A stretch of 64,000 nucleotides of DNA from a virus. The stretch is from IMG/VR virus record IMGVR_UViG_3300034101_005859, positions 1 through 64,000 of that record; one strand, 5' to 3'. Of this stretch, positions 994 to 23,817 are shown in pieces (position 1 is the stretch's first letter; each line of letters starts with the position of its first letter). The position numbers and the translations under genes were made by a program. The notes under the pieces are model-generated. The model did no database searches, had not been told where the DNA came from, and saw nothing but the letters and a program-made list of their open reading frames with translations.

Positions 994-1258
994 TTTATCT
1001 CCTCCAAAAAATATTTAATTTTTCTACATAATGAAACATTCAATTTATTTATGCAAACCAACACATATTTAGGAATTCAGCTATGTTTATTTGGTGAAAA
1101 TCATTCCTTTTTCAACCTTCTTTCTTCTTTGCAATCACTTTAACCAAACATATTCCTTGTAAAAATTCTTGTTGCCCCTCGATTCAGTTAAAGGTTCAAA
1201 TGGCAACCAAGTTCCTCCATCTGACTCGCAAACAATTTTATAAGATTTATTTTTCTAT
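994..1258. other. Intergenic region with duplicated leader and coding remnant
   Basis: 265 bases between 646-993 and 1259-1840. Bases 994 to about 1110 are ~80% like 1841-1965, including the ATAAATA box (1046-1052 and 1892-1898). Bases 1138-1254 (minus) form 39 open codons without ATG, ending at 1135, that read like protein (YKIVCESDGGTWLPFE). This could be a fragment or a small gene with unusual start. Confidence 0.5.
1046..1052 (-). promoter_or_regulatory. ATAAATA late-promoter-like box
   Basis: Minus-strand ATAAATA 53 bases before ATG 993. The paralogous copy lies at 1892-1898, 52 bases before ATG 1840. Confidence 0.5.
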
Positions 1259-1840
1259 TTATGTATTCGTGCCAAAGGGATTACTTACAGTTTGACCACC
1301 ATCTGCAATGACATCTCCTTGTATCCAGTAAATAGTTCCCAAACTAATCGCTACCACATAACTTCCTATGATGCCACCAGTGCTATTATTGGTTCCATAT
1401 TCGATTTTGTTACTCGTAGCACTGGCAGCAAAAGTTCTAGTTTCAGCTACGCCATTTTTATATAGCGTTAGACTACCAGTCATTGAATCAGAAAAAGGAT
1501 AGCACTGGATGAAAAATTGATCTGGGCGAACTGTGGTTAAAAATCGAAATTTCTGCCCAATTGTAGTAGTGCTTAATTCTGGCAATGTTATAAATCCATT
1601 TGGTCCATGATCTAATAAAAACAGTTTTCCATCATCGGATGCAGATATCTGATGAACAGGAAGCGATACAACCGAATTGGTATACGACACTATAATCGAA
1701 ATTTCAGAGGAAGATGATGCGTTAGCAATTGCTGAATTCACATCTGCTGCTAGGTTTAGTATTTTTACATTATTTTGAATTCTCGGAAAAGAATTCTCTA
1801 CTGCTCCGTTGCCTGTACCTGTTACTGAAGATGCTCCCAT
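1259..1840 (-). CDS. Probable virion protein, MGASSVTG paralogue N-terminus
   Basis: 193 residues from the ATG at 1840. An earlier in-frame ATG at 1885 exists, but AAGGAG sits just upstream of 1840 and the resulting N-terminus MGASSVTGTGNGA matches the neighbour at 646-993. The rest is Ser/Thr/Ile-rich and beta-like (SIIVSYTNSVVSLPVHQ, GTIYWIQGDVIADG), as in tail or head fibre and decoration proteins. An ATAAATA box lies at the same distance upstream as in the paralogue. Function is inferred from composition and promoter type only. Confidence 0.65.
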   Translation of the reverse strand: MGASSVTGTGNGAVENSFPRIQNNVKILNLAADVNSAIANASSSSEISIIVSYTNSVVSLPVHQISASDDGKLFLLDHGPNGFITLPELSTTTIGQKFRFLTTVRPDQFFIQCYPFSDSMTGSLTLYKNGVAETRTFAASATSNKIEYGTNNSTGGIIGSYVVAISLGTIYWIQGDVIADGGQTVSNPFGTNT

Positions 1841-1891
1841 TTTTCTCCTTGAAAAAATACTTAATTTTTTCATATGATGAAACATCCAATT

Positions 1892-1898
1892 TATTTAT
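1892..1898 (-). promoter_or_regulatory. ATAAATA late-promoter-like box
   Basis: Minus-strand ATAAATA 52 bases before ATG 1840, in the second copy of the duplicated leader. Confidence 0.5.
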
Positions 1899-1946
1899 GT
1901 AAACCAACAAACACTTAGAAATTTGACTATGTCAATTTGGTGAAAA

Positions 1947-2321
1947 TCATTCCTTTTTCAACAATCGGCTTAGATGATATGATTTACCAATAATTTCTAT
2001 TTCACGATCATCAAACCTGACACAATAACAATTGTCGCCACGAAAATCAATAGCAACTATCTCAAAATCAGGAATTTTCAAACCAGCCTTCTCATAATCT
2101 TTAGCAAGCCTAAATAAAGATAAATATGCAGTCTCATATTCACAAAACATCAAAGGGCGATTCAAATCACACTTATCAATAATTCCATCGTATACATCCT
2201 CGCAAACAACCCACCTAGAACCAACAAATCTTAACTGATATCTGGCTATATAAACACCATCATGATTGATTGATGAACAATCATAAAGACGACTTTTTGA
2301 TTGCTTAAAAAAATCAGGCAT
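1947..2321 (-). CDS. Hypothetical protein
   Basis: 124 residues, no family recognised. It has several Cys (DCSS, VVCEDV, KCDL, MFCEYE, NCYC) without a regular zinc-binding spacing. The C-terminal codons (LLKKE-stop) lie inside the segment duplicated upstream of 646-993, so the duplication unit includes the end of this gene. The ribosome site is AAAGG before ATG 2321. It lies in the same direction as its neighbours and is probably co-transcribed. Confidence 0.6.
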   Translation of the reverse strand: MPDFFKQSKSRLYDCSSINHDGVYIARYQLRFVGSRWVVCEDVYDGIIDKCDLNRPLMFCEYETAYLSLFRLAKDYEKAGLKIPDFEIVAIDFRGDNCYCVRFDDREIEIIGKSYHLSRLLKKE

Positions 2322-2356: not shown

Positions 2357-3229
2357 TTAATGCTCAACAACAACCCTGATCTTTGAATTATAACCAATAG
2401 GCAAGTTATTTACAATACCACGAAATACACCCTCGTCCTTATCCATCCTGACCATAACACGCAAATTTTTCAAATCCAATAAAATTTGACCAGTCGTATG
2501 CATCAACCATGGACTCTTTGTCCTGTAAGGATTCAAAAATGGATCAGATACATATTTTTTTTTCAAAATGTCCAAAACATCACTTGGCAAATTAACATCC
2601 ACCAAATTCTTCTGAGCCAAATTCATCCTGCTGTGAGAAGACTCCTTCTTCCTACCCTTGTTATAACCAGCTTCTTTGTCATATATGCCATGATTTGTTC
2701 TCACAGTCACAGAATCATCATCCGAAACCCTTTTAACAACCTTGCTATCTTTTGTGATTTCTAAAGCATATAAATTAACACCATCACTTACCAATGTCTG
2801 ACCACGAAGACCAACATTCTTACCCTTTTTATTCTTGCCATTCACAATGCTATGAACCATGTCTTTAAGATTAACATGCGACAAAGCCTGCCTTATCTTA
2901 TTGCCCTCATTTGTTACTATCTTCTTATGCTTGTCGTCAGGAACCTTCTTGCCATTTATAACACGCAATCCTTCCTTCTCATCCTGATTCACCATCAAAC
3001 TACTACTCACCATCCCTAAACCATACTCATTCATCCCTTCACACCAATCTGTATCAATATCATGCCAGTACATAACCTCTGTACCATTAATTAATTCATG
3101 AATTATTTCAACATTGGCCTTGTATCCACGATCACGATTCTTGGCCAATACAACACCATCCTGTAGTCGCACACCAGCAACCACACACTCATTTAATGAT
3201 GCGTTTTCAATAAAATTACGGAATTCCAT
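2357..3229 (-). CDS. Ntn hydrolase (linear amide C-N hydrolase / acyltransferase-like)
   Basis: 290 residues resembling the choloylglycine-hydrolase / acyl-CoA:6-APA acyltransferase group of N-terminal nucleophile hydrolases. The likely nucleophile is Cys15 (NEC-VVAGVRL), followed by LAKNRDR, the usual Arg/Asp loop of the family, then NEYGLGMVSSS, and a late VRTNHGIYDKEAGY segment with R/S-rich SSHSRM. In these enzymes a short propeptide is removed to expose the Cys. Here 14 residues precede it. Family members cleave linear amides such as acyl-peptides or bile salts. The substrate here is unknown. No Shine-Dalgarno is seen, and an ATAAATA box ends 5 bases before the ATG, so the mRNA may be leaderless. 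Confidence 0.72.
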   Translation of the reverse strand: MEFRNFIENASLNECVVAGVRLQDGVVLAKNRDRGYKANVEIIHELINGTEVMYWHDIDTDWCEGMNEYGLGMVSSSLMVNQDEKEGLRVINGKKVPDDKHKKIVTNEGNKIRQALSHVNLKDMVHSIVNGKNKKGKNVGLRGQTLVSDGVNLYALEITKDSKVVKRVSDDDSVTVRTNHGIYDKEAGYNKGRKKESSHSRMNLAQKNLVDVNLPSDVLDILKKKYVSDPFLNPYRTKSPWLMHTTGQILLDLKNLRVMVRMDKDEGVFRGIVNNLPIGYNSKIRVVVEH

Positions 3230-3322: not shown

Positions 3323-4852
3323 TTATTTTTTCTTTTTCTTTGACTCATACAGAGCCTTCATCTTCTCAGAACGACAAGGCTTACACATAGTACAATATCC
3401 ATCACGCTTGCTCTTGTCAGGACTAAATTGCTCAAATAATTTAACTTCCTTACACTTATTACATTCCTTCTTACCATCACATGAATGGGGATTATCTTTC
3501 CTCAAACTCAATTTAGGTTTGCTGCCAGCTATATGCCCTCCCTCACGCTCACAAATGTATCGCCCATTCCTAGCTATGTTCTTGTCATAAGTCAGCCTCA
3601 GAGCCGTATGAACCTCATTACAGAAGGCACAGGGGACTTCTACAGTTTTTGTAGCTATATGTTTTTTGTAATGTTTTTTCACACTTTCATTGCGACGATC
3701 TCTTCTTTCTTCTACATAATCAATTCCTTGTATTTCTGAAAGAAACATGTCAGCCCAACAAACAGCTTTGTATTCAGAATCAAATCCCAGTTCTGTCTCT
3801 GTCCACAACTGGAATCTCCAACTGTTTTCACGAGCAATTTTCTTGTTGTCTTCAATTTGTTGCTTACATGCTTCTATTTTGAGTCTTGGTTTGACTTCAA
3901 TTATTGAAACAACGCCAGATTTGTATGTAACGAGAAAATCAATAATTCTTTCCCTTCCGTCAATAGAAGCTGTAACTTGAGTAGTATAAAAATCAACAGC
4001 TTCATCGTTGTCAAGTATTGTTGCCGCTCTTAACTCATAGCTTGATTGATAATAAATTGTTTTCGGTCTGCTTTTTTTAGTTTCATAAAAACCATGCCTG
4101 CGAGTAGCAAATGAATTTGTAACAACTTTTCTAAGTTTGTATATCCAACGCTTTTTTCCAGCGTCATAAACCTGAACCAAACCTCTTTCTTCTGCCCATT
4201 GCCTTTCTGTCATTCCTTCTGGACAGTCAACATTCTGCTTTTTTTGGCTTTGTTTGCTATAAGCCTTTTCAATATTTTCACGCTCAACATAAAAGTAATC
4301 AGGAACCAATTCACTTTCTAAAGTAAAGCCGAGTTTATCATAAACAGTTCCAAGACTGTAACGATTATCACTAAAGCTGATTATCTTATCGATTCCTTGA
4401 GCTTTTGCCCAAACTACAGCAGCATTAAATAATTTACTGGCTCCACCAACTACCCTTACATTATTCTTAAAACACATCCTATCAAGCAAAACATCTTCAT
4501 TGTTGCGATGATGTCTTCCCAAAGAAAGAACTCCTAGAAGCTCATCTCCTTCAAATATTCCAAATGCAATAATCGCAAGGGTGTTTGCTCCTTGAATGTG
4601 ATATTTATTACAGAATTTTCTCATCACATCAGTTTCAATTGCTGTTACTTTGCATTTTCTTGCAAAAACCGATCTCATGTTGTTGCTTGTGTATGAATTA
4701 ACATGTGATTTGATCTGTTGTTCTTTTTTTATGAATTCATGTTTATAGAAAAGGAATGAATTTGGATTTGTTTTGCGGGCAACTTCAAGGACTTCCTTAG
4801 CCCAATGCTTATTCTGATTCAACTCATTCATCACGATGATGTTCGGTTCCAT
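3323..4852 (-). CDS. GNAT-like / PD-(D/E)XK / zinc-finger protein, candidate homing endonuclease
   Basis: 509 residues from ATG 4852, chosen over the upstream in-frame ATG because AGAGGTG precedes it. Residues ~60-190 form the GNAT-like module found in phage homing-endonuclease-like proteins (GVLSLGRHH, RVVGGASKLF, SFSDNRYSLG, YDKLGF). Residues ~268-350 resemble a TnsA-type PD-(D/E)XK nuclease, with E273 (SSYELRA), D305 (IIDFLV) and E319-V-K321 (IIEVKPRL). Two Cys clusters follow: C408/C411/C434 and the HNH-companion motif CNKCKEV...GYCTMCKPC (C464/467/487/490/493). The gene sits alone between the capsid gene and an Ntn hydrolase, a typical spot for a mobile endonuclease. It could also be a defence or DNA-repair nuclease. 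Confidence 0.68.
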   Translation of the reverse strand: MEPNIIVMNELNQNKHWAKEVLEVARKTNPNSFLFYKHEFIKKEQQIKSHVNSYTSNNMRSVFARKCKVTAIETDVMRKFCNKYHIQGANTLAIIAFGIFEGDELLGVLSLGRHHRNNEDVLLDRMCFKNNVRVVGGASKLFNAAVVWAKAQGIDKIISFSDNRYSLGTVYDKLGFTLESELVPDYFYVERENIEKAYSKQSQKKQNVDCPEGMTERQWAEERGLVQVYDAGKKRWIYKLRKVVTNSFATRRHGFYETKKSRPKTIYYQSSYELRAATILDNDEAVDFYTTQVTASIDGRERIIDFLVTYKSGVVSIIEVKPRLKIEACKQQIEDNKKIARENSWRFQLWTETELGFDSEYKAVCWADMFLSEIQGIDYVEERRDRRNESVKKHYKKHIATKTVEVPCAFCNEVHTALRLTYDKNIARNGRYICEREGGHIAGSKPKLSLRKDNPHSCDGKKECNKCKEVKLFEQFSPDKSKRDGYCTMCKPCRSEKMKALYESKKKKK

Positions 4853-4963
4853 GTAACACCTCTTTTTCTTATTGCCCCGCAAAGGTATTATAGTAAGCAA
4901 ATTTTAGAAATCAAGGATTTTTTCAGCAATTTTAAGAAAATATTTAGATGCTTGTAAAAAGGG

Positions 4964-5021: not shown

Positions 5022-6458
5022 TCAGATGACGAAATTAGCAATACTGAGGCGTGCGTAAAATTTTGCCCCCTCACGAAGCAGCTTTTTTCCATAGCGAGTG
5101 AGAATTCCCTTGCGTGGGCAGAAGCTCTCTGGATCGAGAACAACTGGTGTCTGGGTCAATGGAACATATGGGCAGTAGAAGTATCCGCTGTCCATGTAAG
5201 AGTCGCCCTTGTAACCCATCAACAACTGATTGCTTGGGAAGAGAGGATCTTTGTAGAGTCTCCAGCGATTGTTCACGGTGCCGACATACTGGATGCCGAG
5301 TGAGCTTGTGAAGGTTTCAGAAGGTGCAGGAGCGAAACCGGCTGTTGCTGTTTCAAAGATTGAAGCAACTTCAGGTGAGGTCACGATGAAGTTTGCGCCA
5401 CCACGAAGGGTCTTTCTGTGGATGACATTGGAAATTTCGACAACCTTAACATAAAGGCTTTCGTACTTTTCCTTGATCGTTTCGCCGAGTGCAGTGTTGA
5501 AGTCCCAAGCTGAGACAGTACCTGCGTTGTTGCGAAGATCGGTGAGAACTTCACGGTCGATTTCGAGGTTGATTTCCTGAGCGAGAACAGCGGTGAGTTC
5601 AGCTTCAGCGTCAAGATTGTGCTGTGAGCGAAGATCCTGCTGTGCTTCATAAGACCATACAGCCTTGAGCTTACGGGTCTTAGCAGCGATTTCTTCTGAT
5701 TCAATTACGAGATTGATTTCAGGAAGATCTTGGTTGCACTCCATGTTGTATTCGTAGCTCAAAACTGCGTTGTTTGAGCCGGGAGCGCCGTTCCAAGTAA
5801 GGGTGAGTTCGCCTGTGGTTGTCTGAAGAGTACCAGATGTAACCTTTGGTGAAGGAGAGCCGATATCTGAGAAGGTGAAAGTTCCGCTAGCAGACACGGT
5901 GAATGTTTGAATAGCAGTAGCGCCATCATAGATAGTGCCTGTTATTGTTCCGGCAAGGATTGGCGTGTGTTCAAGAGGAGCGAACACGCTTACAACACCA
6001 GCGCCAGCATCAGTGCTGGTTGTTTCATTCTGGATGAACTGGCTGGAATAGAAGATGTCGAGATTGGCAGTACCATCGGCTCTCTGCATGAGTGAGTTGG
6101 CATCGTCGCCGGGGAATCCGCCGTTATTGTCAGCACCACGGGTAGCGCCCTTGTTGCTTGAATAACGGAAGCGGAGATAGTAGACCAAGCCGGTTGGGCC
6201 AAGGAGAGGCTGTACGGAAACGATCTTATTTGCGATAAGCTGTGGGTAGATACGACGAACAAGTGGAATTGAAATCCTCTTGAACTGTGCGACATCTCCA
6301 GTATCGGTTGAGACTTCGTTCATGAGTCTCTGGTTTTCGAGCAGAACTGCGGTAGCGGAGCGGACATAACGATCTTGAATGCCTTCAAGGAGTCCGGTCT
6401 GCTTCCAACGAGTTTCTAGCTCCCTAGCCTCGTTCAAAAATCTAGAATTAGCGTTCAT
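5022..6458 (-). CDS. Major capsid protein (T4 gp23 family)
   Basis: 478 residues forming the main shell lattice. Family signatures: ISIPLVRRIYPQLIAN with QPLLGPTGLVYYLRFRYS (residues ~63-100), TRKLKAVWSYEAQQDLRSQH (~261-280), followed by DAEAELT, and the C-terminal PRKGILTRYGKKLL. T4 gp23 is 521 residues. Here the N-terminal pre-domain is short, and residues ~160-240 hold a beta-rich insertion (TGTIYDG, GELTLTWNGAPG) between the N-terminal region and the main fold, in the place where some relatives carry surface insertions. It lies downstream of portal, protease and scaffold in the usual T4 order and ends at a strong terminator. Confidence 0.95.
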   Translation of the reverse strand: MNANSRFLNEARELETRWKQTGLLEGIQDRYVRSATAVLLENQRLMNEVSTDTGDVAQFKRISIPLVRRIYPQLIANKIVSVQPLLGPTGLVYYLRFRYSSNKGATRGADNNGGFPGDDANSLMQRADGTANLDIFYSSQFIQNETTSTDAGAGVVSVFAPLEHTPILAGTITGTIYDGATAIQTFTVSASGTFTFSDIGSPSPKVTSGTLQTTTGELTLTWNGAPGSNNAVLSYEYNMECNQDLPEINLVIESEEIAAKTRKLKAVWSYEAQQDLRSQHNLDAEAELTAVLAQEINLEIDREVLTDLRNNAGTVSAWDFNTALGETIKEKYESLYVKVVEISNVIHRKTLRGGANFIVTSPEVASIFETATAGFAPAPSETFTSSLGIQYVGTVNNRWRLYKDPLFPSNQLLMGYKGDSYMDSGYFYCPYVPLTQTPVVLDPESFCPRKGILTRYGKKLLREGAKFYARLSIANFVI

Positions 6459-23723: not shown

Positions 23724-23817
23724 GTTTATTCCCTCTTAGTTCCGCACTCTCATGAAGTGACGGATTTATGAAGAATTCATCCATTAAATTGTATAGAGCG
23801 AGAAGATAACAATCAAG

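Follow-up and report, generated by a model that had tools for sequence, protein, structure and literature searches.

A conserved 13-residue N-terminal tag heads diverse, probably virion-borne proteins of very large T4-type phages

The window analyzed here, the 64 kb (64,000 nucleotides, nt) at the left end of the 136,667-base viral record IMGVR_UViG_3300034101_005859, carries two genes, termed A and B, whose products start with the same short peptide and then part. We found that a 13-residue tag of this kind, with the consensus M-G/A-A-S/T-S/T-x-T/E/Q-G-x-G-x-G-S/A, heads many different, probably virion-borne proteins in very large T4-type phages. Because a conserved and probably flexible N-terminus stands on many unrelated fiber- or knob-like bodies, the best reading is that of a docking peptide for interchangeable virion proteins, in which leader plus tag act as a recombination seam; we regard it as rather likely. 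According to this proposal the tag would most likely dock each protein to one common site on the particle, the bodies behind it (a lectin-like knob, a collagen stalk, a Collar fiber and others) would be interchangeable, and homologous recombination within the leader and tag DNA would add, remove or replace bodies.

On the minus strand, A and B lie one behind the other, and a gp23-type capsid gene is found 3-4 kb upstream of them (Table 1). In a six-frame translation of the window, MGASSVTG was found at two loci only, the starts of A and B. The original prediction held that the two products share these eight residues and then diverge; the bodies indeed do not align, but the common part runs on, as MGASSVTGxGxGA. 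In the profile-profile comparison A and B aligned over residues 1-16 only (69% identity, E-value 2.3e-6), and no alignment was obtained past residue 16. The leaders upstream of the two start codons, which had been described as ~80% alike, are direct repeats (994-1116 and 1840-1962) with 104 of 123 nt identical (85%), and the next-best match of the 123-mer on either strand of the 64 kb reached 58/123 (mean 35, standard deviation (sd) 5.3). The promoter-like box noticed earlier is present in both leaders as CATAAATA, ~53 nt upstream of the ATG, and is named here after the T4 late promoter consensus. The window contains 18 copies of YATAAATA (8.1 expected, sd 2.8), all but two of them in minus-strand orientation, and the sequence also stands upstream of 15 of 93 tagged genes, against a shuffle mean of 4.4; the box fits a T4-type late promoter. 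An open reading frame (ORF) ending in LLKKE-stop, which had been proposed to precede both leaders, was found before B; before A there is a vestige of 15 nt that lies within no ORF.

Degenerate DNA patterns of the tag were scanned over IMG/VR and returned 13, 67 and 20 stretches; from the first scan, no tagged ORF was present in L095, L098, L103 or L106, and a 59-amino acid (aa) ORF in L096 was judged a chance match. A regular expression applied to 186 loci gave 94 distinct tagged ORFs, which at a blastp threshold of 1e-4 fell into 10 body clusters (63, 10, 9, 3, 3, 2, 1, 1, 1 and 1 members). There are fewer independent folds than clusters: a few of the singletons probably represent A types that have diverged or been truncated, and profile comparison links the B cluster with the third one. 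Simple regular expressions recognized, among 107 tagged proteins, 63 of the A type, 30 of the 'P.I.NG.VK..NI' type (B included) and 5 of the 'LRG..L.N' type, and left the remainder without a type.

The tag was also present when the search did not make use of it. Body-only hidden Markov models run on 80 capsid-gene loci detected 17 A bodies and 4 B bodies, every one tagged (among the 17 A homologues the regular expression flagged 12, and the starts in L084, L068, L050, L047 and L025 were judged by eye), and B relatives found with body peptides had a tag-like start in 10 of 10 cases. The conservation of the N-termini in homologues, on which the original prediction hung, was thus borne out for both types of body. 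Furthermore, all seven capsid-fetched contigs of at least 100 kb (L032, L042, L053, L071, L073, L074 and L084) carry an A-type tagged gene. In the capsid-gene loci the tag expression gave 19 matches, against 0 in reversed frames and a mean of 0.15 in shuffled ones, and the DNA pattern of the tag matched 13 of 25 records, with 0 for the reversed control. Pairwise identity among the A homologues was 63% in the tag and 37% in the body (14 of the 17 sequences, the near-duplicates L019, L020 and L021 being left out). Within the tag the codons vary across records while the residues stay (87 of the 94 tags fitted the ungapped filter, which imposes the invariance of G8, G10 and G12, so that these were not counted), and the leaders are unrelated. 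From cellular genomes, 64 pattern stretches yielded six ORFs that passed a loose expression, none of them a convincing tagged gene. In A or B the tag itself matched nothing in Pfam or PHROGs, and no description of it was found in open-licence papers. The start resembles the N-myristoylation motif, MG..S; this candidate was dropped, since residue 2 is alanine in 11 of the 87 filtered tags and serine in others (L068), and also since cellular genomes gave no convincing tagged gene.

Behind the tag, the body is a tail Collar domain in L049 and a run of collagen-like repeats in L104. In Rhizobium phage RHph_Y25 the gene that directly follows the major head gene encodes a relative of the L012 protein; the match begins at residue 46 of the L012 protein, and the relative starts two residues before it and is hence without the tag. 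For the L049 protein the relatives are minor tail proteins of Microbacterium phages, and in the best rows the match begins at residue 30. Because the outside relatives of these two bodies match only after the tag, the tag seems to have been added to borrowed bodies; alternatively, the relatives may have lost it. What was found, a conserved N-terminus followed by unrelated distal parts, is one mark of modular receptor-binding proteins with a common N-terminal anchor; a second, an N-terminus from a catalogued family, was not seen in A or B. Most tagged proteins are acidic (median -2.6 per 100 aa). For the second tagged protein of LR756511 there is weak support for a knob at the C-terminus (domain E-value 0.0076 in a one-sequence search).

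The structure of A was modeled from 47 sequences with a mean predicted local distance difference test score (pLDDT) of 75; about 30 N-terminal residues are of low confidence, and a beta-sandwich spans residues ~33-103. The best structural match of the model was the C-terminal domain of the Pam1 tailspike (7eea; Z 8.5, root-mean-square deviation 1.9, 65 aligned), followed at lower Z by discoidins (Z 6-7), other lectin-like and tailspike C-terminal domains, and PL26 lyases. The 7eea tailspike was also the sole PDB profile match of A (E-value 0.027), and no structure match to PDB or BFVD was obtained at an E-value of 0.001 or below. The LKA1 tailspike is among the matches of the model, and its C-terminal domain has been called discoidin-like (PMC5701251; this and the papers below are cited from excerpts). 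The model supports, short of proof, a sugar-binding or trimerizing knob as the body of A. For B, a profile match to the L012-type cluster extends over most of the protein (E-value 2e-8). Neither A nor B had a PHROGs match at an E-value of 0.1 or a tblastn match among annotated phages, and in Pfam only DUF3761 appeared, below the cut-off, over residues 32-75 of A.

The genes of B type in L008, L010, L011, L012 and L013 have leaders unrelated to that of A. The B gene of the window has the leader of A and nearly the DNA of A over codons 1-8 (identity 1.00 and 0.92 in two 12-nt blocks); from codon 9 on, its identity is 0.67-0.95 to other B genes and 0.17-0.58 to A. Since the B genes of L010 and L011 are also close to the window gene within the tag, the leader is the decisive part of this comparison. 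B looks chimeric, with an A-type leader and a B-type body. The B body, which in related phages belongs to a separate array of tagged genes, stands here behind a copy of the A leader and tag, close to the capsid gene.

Relatives of the window show other states of the locus. Their capsid protein is 97-100% identical to that of the window in L006, L017 and L018, and incomplete in L003 and L005. In L005 and L018 the order is 224-aa gene, leader region, A, and leader alignment gives the same order in L019, L020, L021 and L023; in L003, which is without B, it is 124-aa gene, leader, A; in the window it is 124-aa gene, leader, B, 3′ end of the 224-aa gene, leader, A. The L003 leader follows leader A at 19 of the 19 sites where the two window leaders differ, and the 300 nt upstream of it are 99.7% identical to the B side and 29% to the A side. 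With the leader A-like and the upstream region B-like, a crossover would therefore lie in the stretch of ~28 identical bases with which the leader begins, and L003 looks like the product of leader-leader recombination; L003 may have lost B, or the window may have gained it. The B leader of L006 has three differences from that of the window, at least two of them in the A state. Repeated leaders were also found in L012 (46 nt) and L141 (35 nt, identical), and weaker ones in L146. The leader as a functionally fixed element was considered and dropped, as A stands behind different leaders in L004 and L005. Judged by sequence comparison, these data support: i) the conservation of the tag and the diversity of the bodies, ii) the chimeric nature of B and the recombinant leader of its relative, and iii) a swap of bodies behind a fixed tag. 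Hence, of the distal exchange of virion surface proteins suggested at the outset, the exchange stands, through the B chimera, the states of the relatives and the tag on many bodies; the virion surface is a placement that we infer from the gene neighborhood and the types of body.

Tagged genes also occur in arrays, with six consecutive genes in L012 and five in L008. The sister contig G013 holds the capsid-B-A block of the window and runs beyond its left edge, where a search for further genes of this kind had been suggested; two were found, at 23815 and 24391, and their surroundings resemble the L012 array (flanking ORFs alike, by eye). A gp23-family gene is present in 33 of the 44 pattern-fetched records, many of which are fragments. 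The distance between capsid gene and A was counted in 22 records, several of them fetched by tag, 18 of which have a full capsid gene. An A-type gene was found in 17 of these 18, and in 14 it lies at most 25 kb downstream on the same strand, which is a weak criterion for decoration proteins; the exceptions are LR756511 (opposite strand, 22 kb), G034 (59 kb), G037 (38 kb) and G018 (no A). In six phages with more distant capsid genes (XacN1, RAS14, Mel-JY01, LR756508, RM378 and Syn33) there was no A-type match at an E-value of 1 or below, and the A profile matched in LR756511, the positive control, whose capsid protein is 81% identical. A loose tag pattern gave two matches in the same six phages, neither of which reads as a tag; this pattern is weak and missed the known tags of LR756511. 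Because these six T4-type phages are without a detectable A-type gene, the tag appears confined to the phage group around LR756511. Two separate observations concern the neighbors of tagged genes. Collagen-like GPTGPTG ORFs, at least 2461 aa at the longest, lie beside tagged genes in L097 (1-7385) and L104 (1196-9508). An ORF with a 'YGTILGGSSI' stretch, presumably endonuclease-like, borders the tagged-gene array in both L211 (646-1218) and L012 (2750-3316).

Several points weigh against the docking reading. The fold match of A is modest (best Foldseek E-value 0.048, with Z scores for the lyases similar to those for the lectins), and the AlphaFold2 model of B is unusable (pLDDT 36.9). The Collar body points toward tail-type proteins. 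The abundance counts of tagged ORFs are biased, because many of the loci were fetched by the tag. The A-B junction in the chimera is not sharp, the L010 gene being as close to B of the window over codons 4-8 as A is. Finally, most other arrays tested have no repeated leader, so that the tag, and not the leader, is the general feature.

It is conceivable, but in our view unlikely, that the tag docks proteins on the tail, baseplate or neck and not on the capsid, as do the common N-terminal modules of multi-tailspike phages. The Collar-domain body has tail-protein relatives and the A body resembles tailspike C-terminal domains, as would be expected in that case; against it, the capsid gene is close to the A-type genes, and one body has an untagged relative whose gene directly follows a phage major head gene, although neither fact fixes the site. 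One parallel is the Ackermannviridae, whose tailspike anchor is a folded domain, unlike the tag, a Gly-rich, probably flexible peptide of 13 residues found on proteins down to ~110 aa. The parallel lies in the several tailspikes or receptor-binding proteins per phage, which have a common N-terminus and distal parts that are exchanged by recombination; tailspikes with conserved N-terminal domains can be acquired whole (PMC11414711).

A serious rival, which we nevertheless hold to be quite unlikely, is that the tag targets varied cargo to the capsid, as the signal of the T4 internal proteins does, and brings it into the prohead for injection, so that the tagged proteins would lie inside. The capsid targeting sequence of the T-even internal proteins is conserved and acts inward (PMC3012670), and it is the main conceptual precedent for the tag. 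The tagged phages belong to the same T4 superfamily, the pattern of a short fixed N-terminus on highly diverse proteins is the same, and the window carries a T4-type prohead protease gene (PF03420). The prohead protease, however, cuts at [LI]xE, a site that is present in the first 20 residues of 0 of 107 tagged proteins and in the first 40 residues of 3 of 107; in addition, the tag has another sequence, the proteins are mostly acidic, and the bodies are fiber- or knob-like (Collar, collagen-like repeats, tailspike C-terminus) and not injected inhibitors. The lack of the cut site and the nature of the bodies favor a placement outside without settling it. Conserved flanks at the variable T-even internal-protein loci are said to have been described by Repoila et al. 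in 1994.

That the conserved first codons serve translation or expression, as start-site context, and not the protein, would agree with the joint duplication of tag and leader in the window, but it is highly improbable, since codon choice in the tag varies while the residues stay, and the leaders differ among tagged genes. A functionless trace of recent duplication or gene conversion, suggested by the tags of A and B, whose DNA in the window is nearly identical and runs on from the leader repeat, was rejected as hardly credible, because the tag is kept as protein across records despite varied codons and unrelated leaders, and homologues found by body all keep it.

The docking reading can also be set beside known virion proteins. 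The decoration proteins T5 pb10, T4 Hoc and SPP1 gp12 resemble them in having immunoglobulin-like or collagen-like parts; they differ in that pb10 is attached through a helical domain and Hoc probably through its C-terminal part, and the excerpts describe no tag common to unrelated proteins (PMC5292684, PMC7602432). The decoration protein gp87 of P74-26 binds by an N-terminal arm that becomes ordered upon binding (PMC7602432). In adenovirus, likewise, a short conserved N-terminal peptide (~11 contact residues) docks a fiber with a C-terminal knob to the capsid (PMC12796354), but this virus is unrelated and has one type of fiber at its pentons, whereas tagged phages have many bodies each. Fibritin of the T4 type resembles the tagged proteins in being a virion fiber with a C-terminal domain exchanged as a module; it differs in being encoded by a single gene, in which swapping was ancient and has since ceased (PMC3797505).

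A wider proposal is possible, and we put it forward tentatively: tag and bodies might form a general display system in which one docking peptide addresses a repeated site on the T4-type capsid, carries up to about six different adhesins or stalks, and captures new bodies from unrelated phages by recombination in leader and tag. Most proteins in very large phages are without annotation, and the tag offers a simple sequence rule for recognizing sets of probable virion proteins among genes that match no family. The body swap appears to have been caught near the event, with the apparent product and a recombinant relative both available. If the docking reading is true, these phages possess a natural plug-in system.

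Table 1. Positions of the tagged genes, their leaders and nearby features in the window
Feature	Position	Strand	Remarks
Gene A: tag and beta-sandwich body, 115 aa	646-993	-	ATG at 993, MGASSVTG start
Tag of A, codons 1-14: MGASSVTGVGAGAA	952-993	-	
Leader of A, repeat copy 1	994-1116	-	
T4-late-promoter-like box CATAAATA in leader A	1046-1053	-	
Vestigial LKKE-stop copy (15 nt) in leader A, within no ORF	1101-1115	-	
3′ remnant of 224-aa gene (complete before leader and A in L005 and L018)	1135-1236	-	
Gene B: tag and body unrelated to that of A, 193 aa	1259-1840	-	ATG at 1840, MGASSVTG start
Tag of B, codons 1-14: MGASSVTGTGNGAV (likeness to A falls after ~codon 8)	1799-1840	-	
Leader of B, repeat copy 2	1841-1962	-	
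T4-late-promoter-like box CATAAATA in leader B	1892-1899	-	
124-aa ORF, end LLKKE-stop (directly before leader and A in L003)	1947-2321	-	
gp23-type major capsid gene	5022-6458	-	PF07068, E-value 4.4e-87; phrog_138

Other features of the window were noted in passing. Positions 1-90 encode a low-complexity C-terminus, a Pro-Ala/Glu repeat (APAPEPAPEP...) whose length varies among relatives. Next to the head genes, a 290-aa ORF (2357-3229) has a weak, below-cut-off match to PF03417, acyl-CoA:6-aminopenicillanic acid acyltransferase. Between this ORF and the capsid gene lies a 525-aa ORF (3323-4900) with Mom/GNAT-like, TnsA-like and endonuclease-like parts; L006 lacks it at this position and L003 has other ORFs there instead, as expected of a mobile endonuclease.
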